A DNA stretch of 38,302 nt from an uncultured Bacteroidales bacterium. Lineage in GTDB: Bacteria > Bacteroidota > Bacteroidia > Bacteroidales > UBA932. The stretch lies in contig ONMJ01000019.1 in assembly GCA_900318955.1 (NCBI GenBank), forward strand, positions 1 to 38,302, read 5' to 3'. The notes below the pieces were generated by a model that made no database searches, was not told where the DNA came from, and worked only from the letters and a program-made list of their open reading frames with translations. This document shows positions 2,895 to 38,204 of this stretch, piece after piece (the stretch's first letter is position 1; the number at the start of each line of letters is the position of its first letter). The position numbers and the translations under genes are program-made.

Positions 2895-4063
2895 AAAAGA
2901 TAATTGCTCCCCTTGTATGCGCATGCTGCATCCTTTTCTCCTGCGAAAAGAATGAGCCCGCGAAGATTGAACCGAAACCTGACTACAATAATGATAAGGA
3001 ACAACCGGTCGAGCCTGTAGCTACAACTCTCCATAAGTGCTCCGAGGGCAAAATCGTCGACGAGATGATTTTCTCATCCACCTGTGCCCGCACCCTGACA
3101 TCTGTCCAACAGGGCTTCGATTACGACCCGGTTGACAACACCCTGTATTTTTCCCAGCTCAACCGCTGGTACAGAAACCTTATCAGCTGGACCAAGCCGG
3201 AGGTCACCCAGAGCACTACGATTGCTCCGCACTATATGGGTCTCAGCTGCTTCTCTCATGGGAACAATTTCATTTTCGAGCGCACCGAAAATGGCCAGAA
3301 ATATATCTGGGCTCCCAATTTCGGCACTCGTGGAGACGGTTCTTATACCGCCCCTTGGATTGTTTCCCGTATTCCCCTGAGGGAGACTTTCGACCTCAAC
3401 GATGATATAAAGAATACCGAGACCGAAGACAATTATTACTTCGGGGTATCTCCCTGCTGGCCGGCCATTGATTTCGAGAACGACCTCATCGCCATCTGCA
3501 CATACAAAAAGGTATATCTCTATAAGCTGAGCGAGGTGATGGCCCTTCCGAAAACCAATGTCACCATTCCTACTACAATTACCTACGGCGGTATCATCAC
3601 CAGCAGCTCAAGCACAGCAACATACGATTCCCTCATTCCGGAATTTGTAGGATCTCCGGTCGTCTTTGCCCATGATGCCAGCAAACTCACACCGATCATA
3701 GTGTTTGACAGCACCTACAGCAAGCGGGGACTCCACTGGCAGACCTTCTGCATCGGCAACGGGAAGGCCTATTTCCTCAACCAGGGAGATGTCCCTGCGA
3801 GCAGCGTTATCAAGCACGACGCCTTTATCGAGGTATATGACCTTAAGACCGGCCAGCTCATAAAGCAGAAAGTTCGTCAGGAGTATATACAAGATATTAA
3901 CGGGCTGGCATCGAGAGGCTTCGTAGAAAGCGATTACTGCTACGTAGAGCCTGAGGGGATTAAGGTAGTCGGTGAGACTATGTATGTCCTCTATACTTGC
4001 CGCGGCAACAAGAATATCACCACCCGCCGCCCGGTAATATTTAAACTTTCATCTGATATTTAA
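2891..4063 (+). CDS. lipoprotein with a propeller-like beta-rich domain
   Basis: A 390-aa protein with an SpII signal (MKKIIAPLV... ending LFSC, Cys18), followed by an acidic/proline linker to about residue 45. The rest is beta-rich with repeated aromatic strands (FDYDPVDNTLYFSQL, GLSCFSHGNNFIFER, KYIWAPNFG, IAICTYKKVYLYKL, KAYFLNQGD, ETMYVLYTC). This spacing resembles the helveticin J / TagC-like beta-propeller group, but I call that only a resemblance. It overlaps the GH20-like gene by 4 nt and is 5 nt from the phosphoesterase gene, so it belongs to the same operon and may bind or present the same ligand at the cell surface. No catalytic motif is recognised. Confidence 0.65.
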   Translation: MKKIIAPLVCACCILFSCEKNEPAKIEPKPDYNNDKEQPVEPVATTLHKCSEGKIVDEMIFSSTCARTLTSVQQGFDYDPVDNTLYFSQLNRWYRNLISWTKPEVTQSTTIAPHYMGLSCFSHGNNFIFERTENGQKYIWAPNFGTRGDGSYTAPWIVSRIPLRETFDLNDDIKNTETEDNYYFGVSPCWPAIDFENDLIAICTYKKVYLYKLSEVMALPKTNVTIPTTITYGGIITSSSSTATYDSLIPEFVGSPVVFAHDASKLTPIIVFDSTYSKRGLHWQTFCIGNGKAYFLNQGDVPASSVIKHDAFIEVYDLKTGQLIKQKVRQEYIQDINGLASRGFVESDYCYVEPEGIKVVGETMYVLYTCRGNKNITTRRPVIFKLSSDI

Positions 4064-4068
4064 TATTT

Positions 4069-5775
4069 ATGGATAGAAGATCATTCCTGTTCCTTATGAG
4101 CGGAGTTGTTGGAGCCTGCGCTTCAAAAAAGACGCTTGATGTTATTACAGATAAACCTACCGAAGAGGTCACCCCGCCCCCTGTAGTTGACGACGGGACC
4201 ATCAACGGGACCAAAATACTCGATGGGAACAACGTCCATGGCCTTATCAAGGACTCGGACGGAGCTCCGGTAAAGGGAGTTCCGGTCACTGACGGATATA
4301 CCTATGTCAAAACGGACAAAAACGGAGTATATCAGTTTAAGGCGGATTCCAAAGCCACTTTTGTTTATTATAGCCTTCCTTCAGGCTATGCCATCGAGCA
4401 GACTGAGGCCAACAGCCTTCCTTCTTTCTACCGGAAGATTAATCCGGGAGATAAAAACAGGAACGATTTCACCCTCGTAAAAATAGCTTCTTCGTCTTCC
4501 TTCTCGTTTGCCGTTCTTGGAGATATCCACGTCAGGGACACCGCCACTTCGACCAAGTTCCGCAACGGTGCCATGAAGCAGATTGGAGAGTATTTCAAGT
4601 CAAATCCTTCCGCCGGCCCGGTCTTCGGAGTCAGTCTCGGCGACATCATAAATAACGCAAAAGACCCGGACACATACGCCATGGCCCGTGGAGCGCTCAG
4701 AAGCGCTGAATACGCCTCCGGCAAGTATGTTCCATTCTACACTGTAATCGGAAACCATGACCACAATGCACGGAAGGGAGACAAATCACAATCCGGGACC
4801 GAGGGTTTCGACAAGGGAACGGAGACCGACTACGCCAACATTTTCGGTCCGACCTGTTACTCGTTCAACATTGGACGCGCCCATTTTGTAGCCATCGACA
4901 ATTATATCTCCAAGGCGGAGCCAAATAGTTCAAGCACAGCCCTTTCCGGGCAAGGCGCCACCGGCCTCTCGGAGGATGTCTATAAATGGATAGTGAAAGA
5001 CCTTGAACTTGTGGACAACAAGGCCGTGAAGATGGTTGTAGTCCTCCAGCATTGCCACGTTCGCGGTTTTGCCGACATCCCTCACCGTGAGGACCTTCTG
5101 GATAAGCTCTCGGCCTTCAACACCGCCTATATTTTCTCCGGCCATGCCCACATCTGTGAGACCTACAAGTACAAGGTGACAGCCCAGAGCGGAAAGCCCA
5201 TCATAGAGCGCATTCATGGAGTTCCCATGGGTAATTTCTGGTATTCCCGCTACAATCCCGACGGGGCCCCTGCCGGATTCTACATCTACAATGTCAACGG
5301 AAGCGATTTCTCCAGCTGGGAATACCGTCCCGTCCATGATCCTTCGGATCAGATGAGGGTCTACGACACAAACGATGTCTACGACAAGACCTCCGACTGG
5401 TCACATCAGTATGCATGGAAGAACAATGCCCTGTTTGCAGAGGGGAACTTCCTTATCGCCCATATCTACAACGGAGACGAGGATTGGGAGGTCAGTCTTG
5501 AGCACGAAGGGAAGATGAAGAAGATGACATTCGCCAACCAGCGAATCAGCGACTATTGCGTCAACTGCCACCTTGCCAACGATAACATCGAGGGCATCCG
5601 AACATCATGGAAATACCACTGGGACAACTCGGAGAACTGGTGGTACATAAAGCTTGACAAACCCGCCTCAGAGCTTACAGGTTGGAGGGTCGTTGCCAAA
5701 GCCAAATTCCCTGGTAGCAGCGAAACCATCATGTACACATGCGACAAGATTACAAAAAAGCTGGATGAAAAATAG
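4069..5775 (+). CDS. exported calcineurin-like phosphoesterase (three-domain Bacteroidota type)
   Basis: A 568-aa metallophosphoesterase. The N-terminus ([17 protein letters not shown]) combines a twin-arginine-like pair with a lipobox Cys17. Residues about 62-125 ([20 protein letters not shown], then TDKNGVYQF) form a carboxypeptidase-regulatory-like MetallophosN domain. The catalytic core carries the full metal-binding set: D152 and H154 (GDIH), D192 (GD), N229-H230 and D231 (GNHD), H328 (LQHCH), and H359 with H361 (GHAH). The remaining 150 or so residues fit the MetallophosC domain. It probably removes phosphate from a periplasmic or surface substrate, which may be a phosphorylated glycan given the GH20-like neighbour; that link is inference. 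Confidence 0.85.
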
Positions 5776-5792
5776 TATTTTTGTTATCTTTG
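5776..5792 (+). promoter_or_regulatory. two back-to-back -7 boxes before glyA
   Basis: TATTTTTG (5776-5783) and TATCTTTG (5785-5792) both match TAnnTTTG. They overlap the end of the phosphoesterase gene and its short 3' flank. The second predicts a start near 5799, about 18 nt before the glyA ATG at 5817, so glyA can be transcribed independently of the upstream run. Confidence 0.55.
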
Positions 5793-5816
5793 TATAATAG
5801 ACACTACAATTCTAAT

Positions 5817-7127
5817 ATGAGACAGGATCTTCAGGTATTCGACCTAATAAAGAAAGAAAAGGAGCGCCAGAGCTCCGGACTCGAGCTGATTGCTTCAGAA
5901 AACTATGTTTCCGCCCAGGTAATGGAGGCTATGGGCTCCGTATGTACCAATAAATACGCCGAAGGATATCCCGGCAAGCGCTACTACGGAGGCTGCGAAA
6001 TAGTCGATCAAATCGAGCAGCTCGCTATTGATAGAATCAAGACCATTTACGGTGCCGAATATGCCAATGTCCAGCCCCATTCCGGCGCTCAGGCCAACCT
6101 CGCCGTTGAAATGGCAGTCCTTCGTCCCGGCGACACTTTCATGGGCCTGGACCTCGCTCATGGGGGCCATCTCACCCACGGCTCTCCCGTCAATGCCTCA
6201 GGAATCCTCTATAAAGCGGTCTCATACGGCCTCGACGAGAAGACCGGCCGCATCGATTATGATGCTATGGAAAAAACTGCCCTTGAGACCCGTCCTAAGC
6301 TCATAATCGGCGGAGCATCAGCTTATTCCCGCGAGTGGGACTATGCCCGAATGAGAAAGATAGCAGATGAAGTAGGAGCTATTCTCATGGTCGACATGGC
6401 CCATACCGCCGGACTTATCGCAGCCGGCCTTCTCGACAATCCTGTCAAATACGCCCACATAGTTACCTCAACTACTCATAAGACCCTTCGCGGCCCTCGC
6501 GGGGGCATCATCCTGATTGGCAAGGATTTCGACAATCCATGGGGCATCACCACCCCGAAGGGTGTCATCAAGAAGATGTCCCAGATAATTGACTCCGCCG
6601 TCTTCCCGGGGATCCAGGGCGGCCCGCTGGAGCATGTAATCGCAGCAAAGGCTGTAGCTTTCTATGAGGCCATGCAGCCGGAGTATGTAGACTATCAGAA
6701 ACAAGTGATAGCCAATGCGAAAGCCATGAGCGAAGCCTTCATGGCCAAGGGTTACAAAGTCGTATCCGGAGGTACCGACAACCACCTCATGCTGATAGAC
6801 CTTAGGACCAAGTTCCCCGAAGTCACCGGCAGAATGGCGGAAAAAGAACTCGTCAAAGCGGACATAACAATCAATAAAAACATGGTTCCTTTCGACTCCC
6901 GTTCCCCGTTCCAGACTTCCGGCGTCCGCATCGGCACTCCGGCCGTAACATCACGCGGTTTTGTCGAAAAAGACATGGTCGACATAGTCGAGTTGATTGA
7001 CACAGTTCTTGAAGCCATCGCCAACCACGCCTCCGACCTTGAGAACCCGGAATATCTCGCCGTTTTGGAACAAGTCAAACACAAAGTGCATATGCTCACT
7101 AGCGGAAGACCGCTTAATAGATATTGA
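5817..7127 (+). CDS. glyA: serine hydroxymethyltransferase
   Basis: Cytosolic PLP enzyme that interconverts serine plus tetrahydrofolate with glycine plus 5,10-methylene-tetrahydrofolate, the main source of one-carbon units. The 436-aa protein has the family landmarks: [10 protein letters not shown] near the N-terminus, [15 protein letters not shown], the cofactor segment [13 protein letters not shown], and the PLP lysine K222 in [13 protein letters not shown]. The start at 5817 ([11 protein letters not shown]) is preferred to the ATG at 5781, which lies inside the promoter boxes. The next gene follows after 4 nt. Confidence 0.97.
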
Positions 7128-9288: not shown

Positions 9289-9854
9289 CCGCGATGGATT
9301 TTCTCCGGTCTCCATTTATCCTTGGGAGCGGGAGTTTCTGCAGGATGGCCAACCGGAATAATTGCAAGAGGCATCACATTCTCCGGGATGCCCAGCACCT
9401 CTTTTACAACACTATAACGGTCTTCATATGGCCAGCACGCCGTCCATACGGCACCTAAGCCCATTGCTTCGGCAGCAAGAAGAATATTCTCCGCTGCCGC
9501 AGAGCAGTCTATCATCCAGTTGGGATTCGGCCTTTCGATTGCGGGAGAATCCTTCGGGGCATCATGAGGCTTTACAGTCGTATTCAAATCCCCACATACT
9601 ACAATCAGGCATGGGGCCTCGGGGTACATCCTGTTGACGTTTTTTGTCACAAGTTTCCTTGCCGTTTCCCTGTCAGTAACTACTATGAAAGACCACGGCT
9701 GAATATTCTTGGCCGAGGGCGCGGCCATCCCCGCCCTTAGGAGAGTCTCTATTTCCGCCTCGGTAAGCGGCTCCGCAGTGTACTTTCTGACACTCTTCCT
9801 TGAGAGGATAACATCCATCACCGCCTCGAGGGCTATGTTGCTGTTGTTTTCCAT
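9279..9854 (-). CDS. nitroreductase-family FMN oxidoreductase
   Basis: A 191-aa flavin enzyme of the nitroreductase superfamily, expected to use NAD(P)H and FMN. Landmarks: SRKSVRKYTAEPLTEAEIETLLRAGMAAPSAKNIQP (shown as shorter pieces: RKSVRKYT, RAGMAAPSAKNIQPW), WMIDCSAAAENILLAAEAMGLG, and a C-terminal PVGHPAETPAPKDKW ending typical of the small single-domain group. The start is ambiguous: ATGs at 9890, 9872 and 9854 are in frame, each in one unit of an 18-nt tandem repeat. The -7 box at 9951-9944 rules out the much longer frame that continues into the upstream hairpins. Monocistronic by position. Confidence 0.9.
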   Translation of the reverse strand: MENNSNIALEAVMDVILSRKSVRKYTAEPLTEAEIETLLRAGMAAPSAKNIQPWSFIVVTDRETARKLVTKNVNRMYPEAPCLIVVCGDLNTTVKPHDAPKDSPAIERPNPNWMIDCSAAAENILLAAEAMGLGAVWTACWPYEDRYSVVKEVLGIPENVMPLAIIPVGHPAETPAPKDKWRPEKIHRGRW

Positions 9855-9906
9855 GATGCTGCTATTTCTCATAATGCTGTTATTTCTCATAATGCTGCTA
9901 TTTCCC
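9853..9906 (-). repeat. three 18-nt tandem repeats spanning the nitroreductase start
   Basis: Units at 9853-9870, 9871-9888 and 9889-9906 differ by a few bases. On the minus strand they supply in-frame ATGs and encode short Asn/Ser peptides (MRNNSI, MRNSSI, then MENNSN). Because 18 is a multiple of three, copy-number change would add or remove start codons without shifting frame. Confidence 0.8.
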
Positions 9907-9943
9907 TTTGATACAGCTTTTTCCCTTGATACATCCGTTGTCA

Positions 9944-9951
9944 CAAATATA
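9944..9951 (-). promoter_or_regulatory. -7 box (TATATTTG) for the nitroreductase
   Basis: On the minus strand TATATTTG fits TAnnTTTG. A start near 9937 gives a leader of about 45-80 nt depending on which repeat ATG is used. The same octamer drives rnpB and the cyclotransferase gene near 37.5 kb. Confidence 0.5.
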
Positions 9952-9989
9952 GCAATTTCTCCACAACTTCGCACGCCCAACCCCCTCCC

Positions 9990-10067
9990 GTACACCAAAT
10001 GCCCTTCCTGGTGTACAGATATCGTTTTCTGCCACCTCCCGTACACCAAACGACCTTCCCGGTGCAC
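9990..10067. repeat. paired hairpins (GTACACC/GGTGTAC type)
   Basis: GTACACC (9990-9996) pairs with GGTGTAC (10010-10016); GTACACC (10041-10047) pairs with GGTGCAC (10061-10067) with one G-U. Both loops are 13 nt and contain CCTTCC. A small CAGA/TCTG inverted repeat lies between them. A decayed third copy lies at 10313-10339 with the same 13-nt loop length. Confidence 0.7.
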
Positions 10068-10154
10068 CGACACTACCACCAACCCTTGGAAATGGCATAA
10101 TGTTATATATTTGATTGCAATTAATCTCAGGAAAAGAGGGATTGTGGAAGAACA

Positions 10155-10288
10155 TGTTCCAGGTCTCATTATAGAGCGGGGACCTGGAACACAAAGTAAA
10201 CAGAGAATCGGCCTCTGATCTTATCCCATGACCGATTTTACCCATCACTACTGTTCCAGGTCAACCTCCTGAAAGTAGACCTGGAACA
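10155..10288. repeat. three-hairpin module, copy 1 (134 nt)
   Basis: Outer hairpins: TGTTCCAGGTC at 10155-10165 with GACCTGGAACA at 10181-10191, and the same 11-nt arms at 10252-10262 and 10278-10288; both loops are 15 nt. Between them AATCGG (10206-10211) pairs with CCGATT (10232-10237). The second copy at 11019-11152 has the same length and aligns without gaps. Confidence 0.85.
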
Positions 10289-10390
10289 AAAGAGGAGGGT
10301 TTTCCAAGTACCGTACACCAAACACCTTCCCCAGCGTACAGGCACCATTCTAATGAAGTGTGACACTTTTTATGCTCAGTTGTCTATGAA

Positions 10391-10435
10391 CTTAATGCTT
10401 TGCCTCCACAGACCTTAATGCTATGCCACTACAGG
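10391..10435. repeat. two 22-23-nt direct repeats leading into the long inverted repeat
   Basis: Two imperfect copies beginning CTTAATGCT(T/A)TGCC lie at 10391-10412 and 10414-10435. The second copy also supplies the outer arm of the 215-nt inverted repeat that follows. Confidence 0.6.
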
Positions 10436-10633
10436 CCTTCGGGCTGACGTCGGGAAAGGGCGGGCTTGTCCGCCTCGGTTGCTGGACGGCGAACTCCTCC
10501 TTTTGGTCAGGGCAATTGCCCTGTCCAACGTCGTCGGACAGACGCCGTCCTTCTGCTTCGCAGAACCGCCGCCCTCGGCGGGCCCGCTGGTCCTTTCCCT
10601 CCTATTCGCCCGAAAGCCTGTCGCTGCATAGCA
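10419..10633. repeat. 215-nt GC-rich imperfect long inverted repeat
   Basis: Arms 10419-10444 and 10608-10633 pair as TGCTATGC/GCATAGCA, a 4-nt symmetric mismatch, then a 14-nt ACAGGC.../...GCCTGT stem with one G-U. Moving inward, GGGAAAGG (10452-10459) pairs with CCTTTCCC (10592-10599), GCGGGC (10460-10465) with GCCCGC (10582-10587), and GGACGGCG (10484-10491) with CGCCGTCC (10543-10550). The centre is the perfect 16-nt palindrome CAGGGCAATTGCCCTG (10508-10523). A side hairpin TTCTGC/GCAGAA sits at 10551-10565. It could be a structured RNA or a miniature inverted-repeat element; neither is proven. Confidence 0.75.
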
Positions 10634-10668
10634 CTATCGGTTCGTGCAACAGTCGCCAATATCCTTCC

Positions 10669-10751
10669 CCGTGCCACCGGAAGGGGCTCTCGTAGCACGG
10701 CAGGGCTGTTTTGATGGTCCCGTACCACCGGAAGGATGTTACGTGGTATAG
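10669..10751. repeat. two related hairpins sharing CCACCGGAAGG
   Basis: The first pairs CCGTGC (10669-10674) with GCACGG (10695-10700); the second pairs TACCAC (10723-10728) with GTGGTA (10743-10748). Both carry CCACCGGAAGG on the left side and CGT(A/G)G on the right. Less conserved relatives occur at 10905-10933, 10954-10985 and 11175-11206. Confidence 0.6.
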
Positions 10752-10777
10752 CTGGTAGGAACAGACCATGTCTCTTG

Positions 10778-10898
10778 ATGGCGCAGGTGCAGATTTTTCG
10801 CGGCTTCCTGCGCCATTATTGTTTCATAAATATCTGATAACTAGCTCTTTACAATAACGATACGGTGCAGGTCTCCAGCATTATTTCGCACCTGCGCC
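10778..10898. repeat. hairpin triplet (GCGCAGG type)
   Basis: ATGGCGCAGG (10778-10787) pairs with CCTGCGCCAT (10807-10816); GGTGCAGGT (10864-10872) pairs with ACCTGCGCC (10890-10898) with one G-U; between them TTATTGT (10816-10822) pairs with ACAATAA (10851-10857). This repeats the outer-centre-outer plan of the TGTTCCAGGTC modules with unrelated stem sequences. Confidence 0.75.
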
Positions 10899-10985
10899 AT
10901 GCCATACTGCCAAAAGATAGCTTCGTAGCGCGGAATGGCATATTTGCAGGTCACTGCTGCCAGGAGAGGAGTTTCGTGGTACAAG
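10899..10985. repeat. hairpin ATGCCAT/ATGGCAT and a degenerate neighbour
   Basis: ATGCCAT (10899-10905) pairs with ATGGCAT (10935-10941). The enclosed sequence and the stretch 10954-10985 share CTGCCA...TTCGT(A/G)G with the CCACCGGAAGG hairpins, so they are probably older copies of that family. Confidence 0.5.
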
Positions 10986-11018
10986 AAGGCCGGTTCCCGT
11001 GTCTCATTTCATACAGCC

Positions 11019-11152
11019 TGTTCCAGGTCTCTTTTCAGAACGGGGACCTAGAACAAGAGAAAAACCAATAATCGGCCCCAGACAGCCTCCTGTAGCCGAT
11101 TATGCCAATCGATTCTGTTCCAGGTCAACCTCCTGAAAGTAGACCTGGAACA
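11019..11152. repeat. three-hairpin module, copy 2 (134 nt)
   Basis: TGTTCCAGGTC (11019-11029) pairs with GACCTAGAACA (11045-11055, one mismatch), and the same arms recur perfectly at 11116-11126 and 11142-11152. Loops are again 15 nt; the second loop is identical to that of copy 1 while the first differs at several positions. The central stem is TAATCGGC (11069-11076) with GCCGATTA (11095-11102), two pairs longer than in copy 1. Confidence 0.85.
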
Positions 11153-11301
11153 AAAGAGGTGTGTTTTCCCTGTCCCGTGTCACCAGATGAGTGTTTGGCA
11201 GTACGGCCAGCCGATTGTTTCATGGATCAAATGACCGTTTCGCCTTTTCGTCTATGGAAATGCCCGGTTTTCATGGATGAGATTGTAGCCGGCGGAGAAC
11301 A

Positions 11302-11385
11302 GTGAAACAGCCATAGAAACGTCTTGTAAAACAGCCAGAGAAACGTCTTGTGAAACAGCCAGAGAAACGTCTTGTGAAAAGCCAG
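11302..11385. repeat. 24-nt tandem repeat, 3.5 copies
   Basis: Units at 11302-11325, 11326-11349 and 11350-11373 begin GT(G/A)AAACAGCCA and end AAACGTCTT, with two or fewer differences between copies. A partial fourth unit reaches 11385. There are no spacers, so it is not a CRISPR array. It lies 68 nt upstream of the first MraZ-type box. Confidence 0.85.
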
Positions 11386-11452
11386 TTGGGAGGTAGTTTT
11401 GGGGGAAGAGAAGAGGAGCAGTAGGGATTGTTAAAAAAATGTTGAAAAATTT

Positions 11453-11487
11453 TGGAAGAAAATGGGAGAAGATGGAAGAAAATGGAA
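11453..11487 (+). promoter_or_regulatory. candidate MraZ operator: four TGG[A/G]A boxes, 10-nt period
   Basis: TGGAA, TGGGA, TGGAA and TGGAA start at 11453, 11463, 11473 and 11483, each separated by exactly 5 nt. In E. coli, MraZ binds direct TGGGN repeats separated by 5 nt upstream of its own operon. The boxes end 9 nt before the -7 box at 11497, so a bound MraZ ring would cover the -33 region and repress. The call rests on spacing and position. Confidence 0.7.
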
Positions 11488-11496
11488 AATTATTCT

Positions 11497-11504
11497 TATC
11501 TTTG
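11497..11504 (+). promoter_or_regulatory. -7 box (TATCTTTG) of the dcw cluster
   Basis: TATCTTTG is identical to the glyA box and fits TAnnTTTG. It predicts a start near 11511 and a leader of about 30 nt before the mraZ ATG at 11541. It is the only clear promoter seen for the whole mraZ-gltX run. Confidence 0.65.
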
Positions 11505-11540
11505 TACCCGTAGCGTGAAAATAAAGTTTAACAGAGAGTC

Positions 11541-12002
11541 ATGGTAAGATTCTACGGAAAGACAAACGGAAAAATCGATGACAAGGGGCGCGTAGTGTTC
11601 CCTGCCATCTTCCGTGACGCCATGTCCCGTAGCGGCGAGACCGATACGACTCTCATAATCAAAAAAAGCGTACATGGCGCATGCCTGGACCTTTTCACTC
11701 TCGGTGAGTGGGTCAAGAGGTCCGACAAAGTCATGGAATCTCTGGATACTGAACTCAATCCCGAGCACGCTGCCTTCTGGTCAAAATACAATGACGAGGT
11801 CTATCAGGTAGTCCCTGACGGAAAACTCGGCCGTATCAATATACCGGAAGAACTTCTTAAGGCGACAGGTATCACCAAAGAGGTAGTGTTTGCAGGTGTC
11901 GGATACAAGATTGAGATCTGGGACAAGGAAAGACGCGAGTCATCACTCATTCCGGAAGATCAGTTCAGAAAGACAGCGGCAGAACTATCCCACAATAAGT
12001 AG
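11541..12002 (+). CDS. mraZ: transcriptional regulator MraZ
   Basis: A 153-aa nucleoid-type regulator with two SpoVT-AbrB beta-barrel halves: KIDDKGRVVFPAIFRD (residues about 11-26) and the second copy PDGKLGRINIPEEL (about 92-105), the matching DxKGR...P pattern. In other bacteria MraZ forms a ring that binds tandem TGGGN boxes before its own gene and represses the division cluster; matching boxes are present at 11453-11487. First gene of the dcw cluster; rsmH starts 14 nt after its stop. Confidence 0.95.
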   Translation: MVRFYGKTNGKIDDKGRVVFPAIFRDAMSRSGETDTTLIIKKSVHGACLDLFTLGEWVKRSDKVMESLDTELNPEHAAFWSKYNDEVYQVVPDGKLGRINIPEELLKATGITKEVVFAGVGYKIEIWDKERRESSLIPEDQFRKTAAELSHNK

Positions 12003-34420: not shown

Positions 34421-36640
34421 TTAGAATCTATAAGATAACTTCAAGAGGGCATTGCTGGGAGCCTGGGGGTAGACTCCGATTCCGGAGTATATTTCACCTG
34501 TCGCTTTGGAGTAAGACTCCCATCTCCAACCATATGCATAATACATATTGTTGAATATGTTATTGACATAACCGGTCAGGGTGAGAATTCCCTTCGGCAG
34601 CGGAATATCATAAGAGGCAGTAATATTTGCTACGAAATACGCGGGGATTTCCATCTCCTTTCTCATAGTATTATCGATAAACTGCCGTCCTACATATTTC
34701 CCGTCAATTGAAAGAGTCGTGCGCTTAATGGGGAAAAAGGTCAATTTTGCCATTCCGATAACGGATGGTGAAAGGAGCATATCAGTCTCTCCATAATTGA
34801 CAGGGTGAGTCTCATGTTCCTCTCCGTCAGATACTTCCACATAAGAAGTATAGTCCTTGAGACGGTTGGTGCTAAGGGTCATGTTGGCATCGAAGCGGAC
34901 CCACCGAAAAGGAGTCCAAGCCGAGGCAAGTTCTACTCCCCTTCTCCATCCCCTAGGGACATTTTCCTTTATGGCGTAGCCAGATGAACTAAGCCGCCCG
35001 GTCTCAAGCAGAATATCCTGATACTCCATAAGATAGACTCCGGCAGATGCGGAGAATGAGCTTCCCGAGTATCTGTATGAAGCCTCAATATCGACCATCT
35101 TTTCCGGGCGAATGGGATTCTCCTCCGCTTCGCCCTTAATATTCTCCTTTATATCGCTCCTTCCGGGTTCGCGATGCCCGAGAGCGACAGATGCATAGAC
35201 CCTGTGGGAAGGAGAGAAATCCCAGCTCAGACCTGCCCTTGGATTAAAGAAATTCCATGTATCATCATAGCCGATATCGGCGAAATCATCGTCTATGCCC
35301 CGCATCTTGAAATCGACCCTTCTATACTGCAAATCCGCATAAAGAGTTCCCTTTCCGAATACTTTCTTTTCACCTCTGACAAAGGCGGAATTATCGTTTT
35401 TCGATGAAGAATAATCGTACCACTCCAAGCCGCCTGAAAAATCGACCTTGGCCCTGGATGGATCGTAGGAGGGCCCGAAGAACCCCACTATTCCATCATG
35501 AACACCATCATAGCGACTTAGACTGATACCTCCCGTAAGGTCAAGATTCTCAGAACGATAACGAATATCGGAGTTCAGCACATAATAGTTGTTACCCATC
35601 CTTTTCCTATAAATCACATCGCCCTCAACCGGTGGGTCAGTATGGATACCATATTCTGAGAGATTCTTACCCGTCTTGAGATACTCATCGTAGCCATCCC
35701 CTCTCGTATAATTGAGAGTCGTGGTCCATGTCAAAGGATCCGAAAGACTACGGGTATAGTTTAGCTGAAGATGGTGCTGGGTATAGTTATCTGTCTGATT
35801 ATCATAATATTGAGTATTACCATCCTTGTCTTCATAAGCCCCCGCGTCGTTGTGACGACGGTCCTTTTGGTACTGAGAAAGCGAGATTCCATCCCAAGTG
35901 ATACCGCTTCTCTGATCACCCATTAAATAAGTGAATTTCAGAGAGTTCCTGCCTTTCAGATAACCAAGGGTAACAAATGCGGACTGGGACCCTACGAAGG
36001 CGTTACGGATGTATCCGTCGGTCATCCCTCTGGAGTAAGCGGCACTTGCATATAAACCTTTAGAGGTCAAGCCTGTACCGGCAGAGACAGTTGCCATGAA
36101 AGTATTATAAGACCCTCCGGAAAGATCAACAGAGCCGTAGGGGTCAGGGGTCACGAAAGCAGTGTTCATATTCACACTCGCTCCGAAAGCTCCGGAACCA
36201 CTGGCGGATGTGCCAAGGCCCCTTTGAAGCTGCACTGTCGAAATGAGACTGGTAAGGGAAGGGATATTGACCCAGAAGACCTCCTGTGATTCGGCATCAT
36301 TAAGAGTCACGCCGTTGAGGGTCACATTGATCTGCGACCCCTTGACGCCCCTTATGGTCATCGCTGAATTCCCGAGCCCTGTTCCGCCCTCGTTATATGT
36401 AACGACCGAAGGCTGAAGACTTAGGGCCATAGGAAGAGATGCTGAAGGGTTGGAGAGGCGAAGTTCATCTTTTCCGACCATTGTATAGGTCACAGGGGTG
36501 GACTTTCCGGCCCTCGAAGAGGATACGATTACACTATCCAGGGTTTCATGACGCTCCCCGTAGATGTCATCCTGTTCCTGCGAGAATGAAGGCACCGAAA
36601 TGAGCGCAGAGAGCGCCCAAACAACGATTTTTTTATTCAT
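34421..36640 (-). CDS. TonB-dependent outer-membrane receptor, predicted thiamine uptake
   Basis: A 739-aa receptor: signal peptide (MNKKIVVWALSALISVPSFS), a TonB-box-like region followed by a plug domain (VIVSSSRAGKSTPVTYTMVG, LQPSVVTYNEGGTGLGNSAMTIRG, QLQRGLGTSASGSGAFGASVNM, each a plug hallmark), and a 22-strand-type barrel ending in an aromatic residue (LLKLSYRF). It lies directly behind a TPP riboswitch, which is how TonB receptors for thiamine are controlled in Bacteroides. Import of thiamine or a precursor is therefore predicted from regulation, not from the protein itself. The start at 36640 is set by the signal peptide and the riboswitch; an ATG at 36679 would lie inside the aptamer. 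Confidence 0.88.
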   Translation of the reverse strand: MNKKIVVWALSALISVPSFSQEQDDIYGERHETLDSVIVSSSRAGKSTPVTYTMVGKDELRLSNPSASLPMALSLQPSVVTYNEGGTGLGNSAMTIRGVKGSQINVTLNGVTLNDAESQEVFWVNIPSLTSLISTVQLQRGLGTSASGSGAFGASVNMNTAFVTPDPYGSVDLSGGSYNTFMATVSAGTGLTSKGLYASAAYSRGMTDGYIRNAFVGSQSAFVTLGYLKGRNSLKFTYLMGDQRSGITWDGISLSQYQKDRRHNDAGAYEDKDGNTQYYDNQTDNYTQHHLQLNYTRSLSDPLTWTTTLNYTRGDGYDEYLKTGKNLSEYGIHTDPPVEGDVIYRKRMGNNYYVLNSDIRYRSENLDLTGGISLSRYDGVHDGIVGFFGPSYDPSRAKVDFSGGLEWYDYSSSKNDNSAFVRGEKKVFGKGTLYADLQYRRVDFKMRGIDDDFADIGYDDTWNFFNPRAGLSWDFSPSHRVYASVALGHREPGRSDIKENIKGEAEENPIRPEKMVDIEASYRYSGSSFSASAGVYLMEYQDILLETGRLSSSGYAIKENVPRGWRRGVELASAWTPFRWVRFDANMTLSTNRLKDYTSYVEVSDGEEHETHPVNYGETDMLLSPSVIGMAKLTFFPIKRTTLSIDGKYVGRQFIDNTMRKEMEIPAYFVANITASYDIPLPKGILTLTGYVNNIFNNMYYAYGWRWESYSKATGEIYSGIGVYPQAPSNALLKLSYRF

Positions 36641-36727
36641 AATACATTCCTCCGGCGGTATTGACCGCATCAGGTTCAAAGGGTATTTCTCAACCGCCTC
36701 CTACTGGAAGCAGTACCCCTTGTAATT
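36641..36727 (-). promoter_or_regulatory. TPP riboswitch (THI element)
   Basis: Read on the minus strand: P2 as GGGGTA with TACCC, a small P3 hairpin TACTG/CAGTA, the core TTGAGAAATACCC, then TTTGAACCTGATGCGG and CAATACCGCCGGAGGAA, the conserved pyrophosphate-sensing helix. The closing helix pairs bases near 36727-36721 with 36646-36641. The conserved GGAGGAA (36653-36647) ends 6 nt before the ATG at 36640, so it doubles as the ribosome-binding site. TPP binding would hide it and reduce translation. The 5' end touches the stop codon of the cyclotransferase gene. Confidence 0.93.
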
Positions 36728-37478
36728 ATTTTTTTATAAGTTCAACCTCATAAAGCCGGGGCCAGTTTTTCCCGGTGAGGTAGATATGTCCGTCTTTATA
36801 AGCGATTCCGTTCAGTACATCCGTGTCCTGCGTCCTAAGCTTAGCAGGAAGAAGTCCTGTGCAGTCGACAGTAGAAACAACCTCGCCGCTCTTTGGATCT
36901 ATAACTACAATAAGGTCTGTCGTATATACATTAGCCCAGATCTTACCGTCAATCCACTCCAGTTCATTGAGATAGCGGACAGGCCTTCCATTGAGAGTCA
37001 CTTTCAGTTTCTTACTGACTTTCAGGTCTTTATCCATGAAATACAACTGCGACGAGCCGTCCGAAGCTATTATCTGCTTGCCATCAGTCGTCATCCCCCA
37101 GCCCTCTCTGGGATATCCCTGTGTGGACCTATATTCAAGGGTCTCTGGATTATATTTAAAAGCAACCTTATTGGTCCATGTAAGTACATATAAGTCTCCA
37201 CCGAAGACCACTGAGCCTTCGATGAAATACTTATTGTTGAAACTAACCTTCTTGACCGGCTTGCCACTCTCGAGGTCGACTATCCTCAATGTGCTGCTGC
37301 CCCACTGGCCTGTGCTTTCGTAAAAGCGGCCGTCATGAAAGAAAAGGCCCTGAGTATAAGAGGTAACGTCATGGGGATACTCCTTGACAACCTTTACTTT
37401 ATACTCGACAACCTTGGCTGCACCACAAGAAGGAAGCAGCGCAATAAGTAGTGCCAATATGAATACCTTGATTCTCAT
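36726..37478 (-). CDS. glutamine cyclotransferase-like lipoprotein
   Basis: A 250-aa protein with an SpII signal (MRIKVFILALLIALLPSC, Cys18). The mature part is a five-bladed propeller-like domain of the glutamine cyclotransferase family: HDVTSYTQGLFFHDGRFYES, GQWGSSTLRIVDLESGK, LNELEWIDGKIWANVY, DVLNGIAYKDGHIYLTGKNWPRLYEVEL. Known relatives cyclise N-terminal glutamine to pyroglutamate; the natural substrate here is unknown. The start at 37478 is preferred over 37496 because the latter overlaps the -7 box at 37493-37486. The predicted transcript start is within 2 nt of the ATG, so the message may be nearly leaderless. Confidence 0.85.
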   Translation of the reverse strand: MRIKVFILALLIALLPSCGAAKVVEYKVKVVKEYPHDVTSYTQGLFFHDGRFYESTGQWGSSTLRIVDLESGKPVKKVSFNNKYFIEGSVVFGGDLYVLTWTNKVAFKYNPETLEYRSTQGYPREGWGMTTDGKQIIASDGSSQLYFMDKDLKVSKKLKVTLNGRPVRYLNELEWIDGKIWANVYTTDLIVVIDPKSGEVVSTVDCTGLLPAKLRTQDTDVLNGIAYKDGHIYLTGKNWPRLYEVELIKK

Positions 37479-37520: not shown

Positions 37521-37910
37521 TTATGGTGGGACGATCTGCCGCGGTGCCTTTCGGGGCGCTGAGGAAAGTCCGGACAGGGCAGGGCGCCCGGCTGCGGAAA
37601 GCGCAGAAGGGAGTAATTTTTTGCAATCCGTAACAGAAAACAACCGCCGCACATATAGTGGCAGGCTCTTCGGAGCCGCTCATACCACGATTTCGTGGGA
37701 GACTTCGGTCAATGAACCACTATCGGCAAGGGTGAAAACGTGGGGTAAGAGCCCACGACGTGGTCCCGGCGACGGGCTGCGGGTACGGACCCCGGGCCTG
37801 CAAGACCGAATATACTGACAGATGAGGGCTGCCCGCCCGATGTCAGGGGGTAGGTTGCGAAGATAAATGGCAGATTTAAAAACAGAAACCGGCTTACGGC
37901 CCCGCCATTT
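37521..37910 (+). ncRNA. rnpB: RNase P RNA (bacterial class A)
   Basis: Catalytic RNA that removes 5' leaders from tRNA precursors. The conserved 5' core GAGGAAAGTCCGGACA is at 37561-37576; the middle has GGTGAAAACGTGGGGTAAGAGC (37732 onwards, the universally conserved GUGAAA...GGUAAGAGC) and the 3' core ACAGAAACCGGCTTA at 37882-37896. The ends pair as P1: ATGGTGGG (37523-37530) with CCCGCCAT (37901-37908). The promoter at 37506-37513 predicts a start at about 37520. Confidence 0.96.
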
Positions 37911-37915
37911 CCTCT

Positions 37916-38033: not shown

Positions 38034-38204
38034 GCGGAGACCAAAAACCCCACGTTTTGACCTGAAAACGTGGGGTAAACTGTCCGCAGAGACCAAAAAT
38101 CCCACGCTTTGACCTGAAAACGTGGGGTAAACTGTCCGCGGAGACCAAAAAACCCCACGCTTTGACCTGAAAACGTGGGGTAAACTGTCCGCGGGGACCA
38201 AAAA
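38034..38204. repeat. 52-53-nt tandem repeat, three units plus a broken fourth
   Basis: Units at 38034-38085, 38086-38137 and 38138-38190 each read GC(G/A)GAGACCAAAAA, a hairpin, then GTAAACTGTCC. In unit 1 ACCCCACGTTTT and AAAACGTGGGGT pair over 12 bp around GACCTG; units 2 and 3 have one mismatch in the stem. On the minus strand each hairpin is followed by TTTTTGG, as in an intrinsic terminator. A fourth unit stops after its first 14 nt at 38204. Minus-strand frames with repeated FWSLRTVYPTFSG-type peptides are by-products. The stretch 37958-38033 before it holds only the palindrome CCCTCGAGGG. Confidence 0.85.

Follow-up and report, generated by a model that had tools for sequence, protein, structure and literature searches.

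The 38,302-nt stretch of DNA analysed here (the window) contains at 9952-11452, upstream of mraZ, an intergenic region crowded with hairpins. It is very probably an island of repetitive extragenic palindromic sequences (REPs) and of REPINs (REP doublets forming hairpins), in which several families of short palindromic repeats have piled up. The gene mraZ, first of the division cluster, occupies 11541-12002 on the plus strand according to the list of open reading frames (ORFs). Where the initial annotation had counted at least ten inverted repeats, we find 28 inverted-repeat pairs within 9800-11600 (at least 10 nt; distant arms counted). The folding comparison that it had suggested comes out in the same sense. 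As RNA, the segment 9952-10700 folds at -263.6 kcal/mol against -215.6 ± 7.3 in dinucleotide shuffles (z -6.5), and the segment 10701-11452 at -260.2 against -223.5 ± 9.0 kcal/mol (z -4.1), with 0 of 20 shuffles equally low in either case. A tRNA search of the island gave none. No mobility gene is seen to adjoin the island in the window (ORF list, by eye), as had been claimed; the transposase gene that goes with one of its families lies on another contig.

That family, the most frequent kind, is the GCGCAGG REPIN, here called F1 (10778-10900, plus strand, 123 nt; delimited by BLAST, pattern search, profile and alignment), in which a left REP at 10778-10816 is followed by an inverted right REP at about 10862-10900. 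Its two inverted hairpins, spaced 84 nt apart in a unit of 122-123 nt, are by eye of two types, one per side, facing each other. The AT-rich spacer holds a small palindromic core (CTGATAACTAG; CTGATAnTCAG across copies), which is the smaller inner inverted repeat of the element. The genome to which the window belongs measures 2.40 Mb in 67 contigs (labelled C18, C48 and so on). Against it the region 9930-11500 has at least 106 BLAST matches at E ≤ 10, self match counted (40 of 57 first-look candidates scored). Pieces of the island recur there singly and in mixed clusters (C18:66822-67818, C49:166-759, C66:93298-94363, C56:44431-44920, C23:2809-3511), and several contigs terminate in or near such clusters. 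F1 itself is dispersed: its hairpin pattern, GCGCAGGTGCG-N6-30-CTGCGCC, has 48 exact matches in this genome and 0 in the backwards control, and every match listed is 34 nt long, that is, with a 16-nt gap, despite the 6 to 30 nt permitted. Its geometry is fixed. A profile run on the fetched DNA (343 kb) gave 51 hits, of which 15 partial ones were excluded from the length count; among the 36 near full length, one measures 116 nt and all others 122 nt, and 35 copies align without a gap over 123 columns though the AT-rich spacer varies. Ordinary repeats scattered genome-wide with no fixed pairing were the outcome that the initial annotation had named as adverse to its reading; scattered the hairpins are, but the pairing is rigid, with 35 of 36 F1 copies of one length. 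The placement of F1 is intergenic: of 36 copies 2 fall within a stop-to-stop frame of at least 150 aa, whereas 81% of 2000 positions drawn at random from that DNA do so. Across the genome collection the same pattern occurs in 119 stretches; the 80 listed have one match each and come from varied and often GC-rich genomes (the uncultured bacterium RUG14821, L141, among them), and we read these matches as chance.

Tracing the F1 copies led to a gene for a REP-associated tyrosine transposase (RAYT), here called RAYT3. Full F1 units stand on both sides of it on contig C48 (L238:5195-5317 and 6760-6882), enclosing a 118-aa ORF (L238:5395-5751) and, directly behind it, the 305-aa ORF of RAYT3 (5753-6670). 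The protein has the catalytic residues H68xH70 (SNHGH) and Tyr128; in 55 proteins of its clade Y128 is invariant and H68 and H70 are nearly so. Its further motifs are W145-S146 and Y128-IVRNAMDN, the clade consensus of the latter being YIPRNALDN. The structural model (predicted local distance difference test, pLDDT, 92.6; predicted template-modelling score, pTM, 0.85) has as its top match in the PDB entry 4er8, the complex of a RAYT with a REP hairpin (E 1.4e-4; template-modelling score, TM, 0.67 by target, 0.38 by query). This is the sole match below E 0.001 among 1269; IS608 comes second with E 0.0025, and between 0.003 and 0.01 there are unrelated folds as well. Judged by this model RAYT3 is a divergent RAYT, with a predicted HuH plus single-tyrosine (Y1) transposase fold; F1, on both sides of its gene, is its REPIN. 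The RAYT search of the same genome gave three RAYTs, RAYT3 appearing once, plus two hits that are weak and partial (E 0.003 and 0.2); PF01797 at E ≤ 0.001 found RAYT1 and RAYT2 and missed RAYT3. Adjoining the F1 units at RAYT3 are short direct-repeat arrays (CATGATTTTGGCGCAGGT-like; L238:4640-4860 and 5050-5200), which look like multiplied half-hairpins.

The length of F1 and its perfect 13-bp terminal inverted repeats would also suit a miniature inverted-repeat transposable element (MITE), or an element of the enterobacterial repetitive intergenic consensus (ERIC) kind, moved by a DDE transposase; ERIC and Correia elements are about the size of F1. We consider such an origin highly improbable, since each half of F1 is itself a hairpin, the transposase that it flanks is of the Y1 and not the DDE type, and target duplication is not seen: none of the 36 copies has identical flanks of 3-9 bp (2-bp identity occurs in 6). 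The palindromic mobile repeats that the initial annotation had listed among its possible readings are what we retain, the repeats being scattered genome-wide and one family flanking a transposase gene of the matching kind.

The 118-aa ORF in front of RAYT3 has counterparts elsewhere in the clade. Among 400 genomes sampled in the genus, 116, our own included, have RAYT3-like genes (E ≤ 1e-50). From the best-scoring hits we took 71 clade loci, whose flanks were read up to 1500 nt before and 1000 nt after the gene. At 37 of these loci an ORF of at least 90 aa has its end no more than 60 nt ahead of the RAYT match; 30 of the partner proteins were aligned (MKKILEVL...), and with L327, which is unlike a member, set aside, the partner is present at about 29 of the 71. 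Its structural model is modest (pLDDT 77.8) and has no match in the PDB below E 4.

REPIN-shaped elements stand in the flanks of 60 of the 71 loci, on both sides in 23, and amount to 87 elements, against 0 in five shuffles per flank (150-nt blocks). Their hairpins follow one template: a pyrimidine-G foot, a variable stem base, AGGT, a T- or A-rich loop, ACCT and the complement. The words at the stem base vary by lineage (GGCGC, GGGCA, GGGGA, GTCGC, GATAA, GTACA and others). They covary across RAYT lineages: Watson-Crick pairing holds at four stem positions in 94-97% of 109 hairpins, near relatives included and two hairpins per locus not being independent, against 37-50% with partners shuffled between loci (11 of 120 hairpins had no recognisable core and were excluded). 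On the RAYT tree, built without four distant rows (L331-L334), our own RAYT3 belongs to a branch (98/93) of 16 rows that contains all nine GGCGC rows; the remainder are four GTCGC, one GCTGC, one TGCTT and one without an element. The eight GGCGC rows other than our own have a spacing of 62 nt. The initial annotation had found it hard to explain by simple duplication that unrelated stems share a geometry. The observation stands, and within the RAYT clade it has a ready source, because the stem word turns over while the scaffold stays. A literature search that covered few subscription journals found neither the RAYT3 clade described, nor a gene partnering a RAYT, nor spacing in bands.

The mechanism that we propose runs as follows. 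HuH tyrosine transposases of the RAYT kind, specific for single strands, would copy and insert the repeats over time, so that these accumulate before mraZ. RAYT3, perhaps as a dimer, would recognise, in single-stranded DNA, the inverted hairpin pair of one REPIN, cut with Tyr128 in its HuH active site and join the element elsewhere. Both hairpins and their spacing would be kept, with the spacer sequence free to drift, since the pair would be the recognised unit. At the stem base, the 4-5 bp that vary might then serve as the address of the lineage, and the AGGT/ACCT inner stem as the part shared by all.

The distance between the two hairpins falls mainly into bands. The strict search has 33 elements at 61-63 nt, 43 at 72-75 (34 of them at 75) and 8 at 83-84; the rest are one at 99 and two at 125, with none in 64-71 or 76-82. 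The spacing class switches at least seven times on the RAYT tree. At one locus (L329, genome G040) a 62-nt element stands on one side of the gene and apparent 84-nt direct tandem units with a similar word on the other, upstream side; it is a possible intermediate in a spacing switch. It may be that the DNA helix sets the distance, about 62, 73-75 and our own 84 nt lying near six, seven and eight turns, and that the transposase, perhaps with the 118-aa partner, brings both hairpins to one face of the duplex. We regard this as rather unlikely because there are off-band elements, because the 84 band is weak and because the step from 62 to 75 nt, at 13 nt, exceeds one turn. The looser search adds one or two elements each at 46, 56, 64, 85, 123 and 125, with one shuffled element at 64, and among the clade loci there are weak elements at 58, 81 and 91. 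The 84 band is firm only in our own genome; elsewhere the word of L328 is itself a palindrome (the looser search reads 56) and L334 has 83 with two mismatches. Were the distance helical, the REPIN would be read as a duplex or as a single long hairpin, with the partner within the complex.

The initial annotation had described three stem words, each as two outer hairpins around a smaller inverted repeat. This holds for GCGCAGG, which occurs once, and for TGTTCCAGGTC, which occurs twice; GTACACC forms a direct tandem with a 51-nt period, not an inverted pair, and further families (F4 to F7) are present. The TGTTCCAGGTC REPIN (F2), identified by inverted repeats and pattern search, lies on the plus strand at 10155-10288 and again, in the same layout, at 11019-11152. 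Two inverted 37-nt REPs stand 97 nt apart, start to start, around an inner inverted repeat (10206-10237 and 11068-11103, respectively), and the two copies are 78% identical over 160 nt. With T-GTTCC-AGGT, an arm offset of 29 and the 97-nt spacing, F2 fits the template of the RAYT3 clade. Its stem pattern occurs, among 400 genomes, at 7 places in our own, 31 in G355, 5 in G170 and 1 each in G040 and G203, with none in the other 395; the backwards control matched one genome (G245). One of the three RAYT loci of G170, from a sister subclade, has F2-like hairpins near its 3' end, as 73-nt tandem units, and is no more than a lead to the cognate of F2. The RAYTs of G355 (five hits, one gene broken) were considered for the same part and set aside, none of them carrying the F2 word. 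Going by its sequence, F2 is probably an orphan REPIN on the RAYT3-clade template, with no cognate RAYT found in this assembly.

Three families of REP-like hairpins, all on the plus strand, share a 51-nt period. F3 (GTACACC; inverted repeats) has unit 1 at 9990-10016, unit 2 at 10041-10067, 51 nt further on, and a decayed third hairpin at 10313-10339 (69% identity to the reference copy); among the fetched loci, hairpins with its stem (CGTACACC/GGTGTACG) also occur at C57 (three), C46 and C38. F4, recognised like F5 by inverted repeats and BLAST against its own genome, has unit 1 (CCGTGCCACC) at 10669-10700 and unit 2 (CCGTACCACC) at 10720-10749, also in a 51-nt tandem; its units share CCGTRCCACC (10669-10749). 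F5 (TCGTCTATGG) lies at about 11249-11280 with a related stretch 51 nt upstream. Tandem arrays of 51-52-nt hairpin units stand on either side of RAYT2; F3, F4 and F5 have the same architecture, and by architecture alone we assign these three as putative tandem REP arrays of the RAYT2-flanking type. The array family of RAYT2 has 13 matches in its own genome, counting itself, its flanks and a piece of such a 52-nt tandem array at the right end of the window (38066-38185), where a 179-aa minus-strand ORF is probably spurious. CCGTGAG repeats flank RAYT1 (by eye), and among 38 Y1 genes of our own and related genomes the two flanks share a word of at least 13 nt in 17, a count made without a shuffle control.

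The remaining two families are of other kinds. F6 (10416-10636; inverted repeats, BLAST against its own genome and relatives) is a long, GC-rich, nested hairpin element, with two 23-nt direct repeats at its left edge (10388-10433, plus strand, from the repeat listing). Parts of it occur at 90-95% identity at four other places in its own genome (C45, at both ends, C41 and C18), three of these at contig ends, and at 75-89% in the relatives G008 and G001. As the matches within the genome are closer than those in the two relatives, F6 may have been amplified recently. No transposase could be linked to it. F7 consists of three 24-nt tandem repeats (GTGAAACAGCCAGAGAAACGTCTT; 11302-11379, plus strand, from the repeat listing). 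F1- and F2-type stems are present elsewhere in the genus.

Several points weigh against reading the island as the work of RAYTs. A cognate RAYT of F2 to F6 was not found in this assembly, so that for most of the island the link to such enzymes rests on architecture. RAYT3 itself scores below the family cut-offs of Pfam (13.3 of 23 bits) and NCBIfam (14.3 of 80), and a sequence search of the PDB with the clade profile A1 gives no transposase. The element is not seen at 11 of the 71 clade loci, and three shuffles put through the looser element search also produce one element. There is some circularity in the covariation test, the elements having been found by complementarity, and the 71 loci are picks from the best-scoring hits. 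Neither GT[AG]G nor another tetranucleotide is conserved at the foot of the hairpin, positions outside the stem carrying at most 0.17 bits each (144 outer feet, RAYT3-clade loci). Finally, we infer the mobility of F1, as we do recognition, cutting and dimerisation.

A structured RNA locus or an operator cluster, kept for its function before mraZ, was the other class of reading that the initial annotation had raised, and the strong folding signal and the position before the division cluster would agree with it. We give it very little credence. Among 30 relatives at E ≤ 0.001 (at most 12 candidates scored per genome) F6 alone of the island matched, in 2; the mraZ loci of four relatives gave a single 72-nt match, to F6, 6.5 kb upstream of the gene; and in the two relatives with the highest MraZ identity the closest upstream ORF of at least 110 aa (mechanical ORFs) ends 155 and 197 nt before mraZ. 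Pieces of the island recur, besides, at dozens of other sites. Rfam has nothing for the island at gathering score, and at E ≤ 10 it has 11 matches, the lowest E being 0.26 (20.5 of 52 bits). The fold predicted by alifold from 35 F1 copies has 22 pairs, of which 0 changed on both sides, a null that says little because the stems hardly vary. A secondary role of the island in transcription or mRNA stability may exist beside its origin as a REP/REPIN island. Least credible is the proposal that decayed IS200/IS605 insertion sequences left the paired hairpins behind as their left and right ends: such sequences belong to the same enzyme superfamily, and the structures of IS608 and ISDra2 match the RAYT3 model (E 0.0025 and above), but insertion sequences are usually multi-copy and near-identical, whereas RAYT3 turned up once in its genome, and the two hairpins of F1 carry one word, in opposite orientations.

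The surroundings of the island add some detail. On its left lies a minus-strand ORF resembling a nitroreductase (by eye), open to 10169 and with a likely start at about 9853; its start codon is uncertain because in-frame 18-nt tandem repeats occupy its beginning (9839-9904). On the right edge, 10-bp TGG(G/A)A direct repeats (11450-11489, plus strand, seen in the sequence), which we take to be probable MraZ boxes, have similar repeats before mraZ in relatives. In the relative G008 (L367, C56:1-8000) mraZ (6621) has a RAYT gene (3653-4516) about 2.1 kb upstream of it, and an F6 piece opens the contig. Going by this locus, such elements may find a landing place ahead of the division cluster. Elsewhere in the window Rfam recognises a thiamine pyrophosphate (TPP) riboswitch (36630-36730, minus strand), at the start of an ORF resembling a TonB-dependent receptor (by eye), and the RNase P RNA (37523-37912, plus strand).

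To our knowledge, how REPs gain new sequence while their transposase still recognises them is an open question. In over a hundred genomes of this genus one RAYT clade combines a constant scaffold with different stem words, and both repeat and enzyme are in hand, so that an exchange of words between lineages would be a test of recognition. Two further concrete features open to testing are the partner gene and the banded spacing, and a hairpin locus before a division cluster, such as this one, can be a repeat island.

What lies before mraZ is a known kind of thing, in a lineage in which the system has unusual features: the lack of a GTAG guide, the YIPRNALDN motif, the partner gene, and spacing mainly in the bands of 61-63 and 72-75 nt. 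With the REPIN or bacterial interspersed mosaic element (BIME) systems of P. fluorescens SBW25 and E. coli and their RAYT (TnpA-REP), as the available excerpts describe them (PMC3116915, PMC6006769, PMC8266576), it shares intergenic inverted pairs, imperfect palindromes of 30-40 nt, a fixed spacing, two REP subtypes per pair, solitary REPs next to the paired ones, a single transposase gene with its own repeat in the flanks, and the transposase fold. Unlike those systems as excerpted, ours lacks a GT[AG]G guide, combines a stem base that varies with an AGGT/ACCT inner stem that does not, and has a transposase of about 305 aa preceded by a partner gene. Here the hairpins are spaced 84 nt apart, in relatives mostly 62 or 75, as compared with 71 and 110 bp given for SBW25, which were measured between 16-mers and are not strictly comparable. 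Also close is TnpA-Y1 subclass 2.6 (Bertels group 5) of the Bacteroidetes, for which the accessible part of PMC6006769 reports an NHxH motif, no GT[AG]G, and genome-recurring "atypical secondary structures" in the flanks. Its signature in Table 1 of that paper is NH[LIV]H / WQ / YIH[QN]NP, whereas RAYT3 has SNHGH, W145-S and YIVRNAMDN, with YIPRNALDN in the clade (taking W145 as the W of the table, and comparing by signature). YIPRNALDN fits none of the Y-motif signatures in the rows of Table 1 at our disposal, and W-S is found also in subclass 1.1 (W[TS]). As to the GTAG- and CGTC-tagged REPs covered in the available part of PMC3733652, neither tag is conserved at the foot here, but like our elements they form dimers, with spacers mostly of 20-100 bp, some of them structured.

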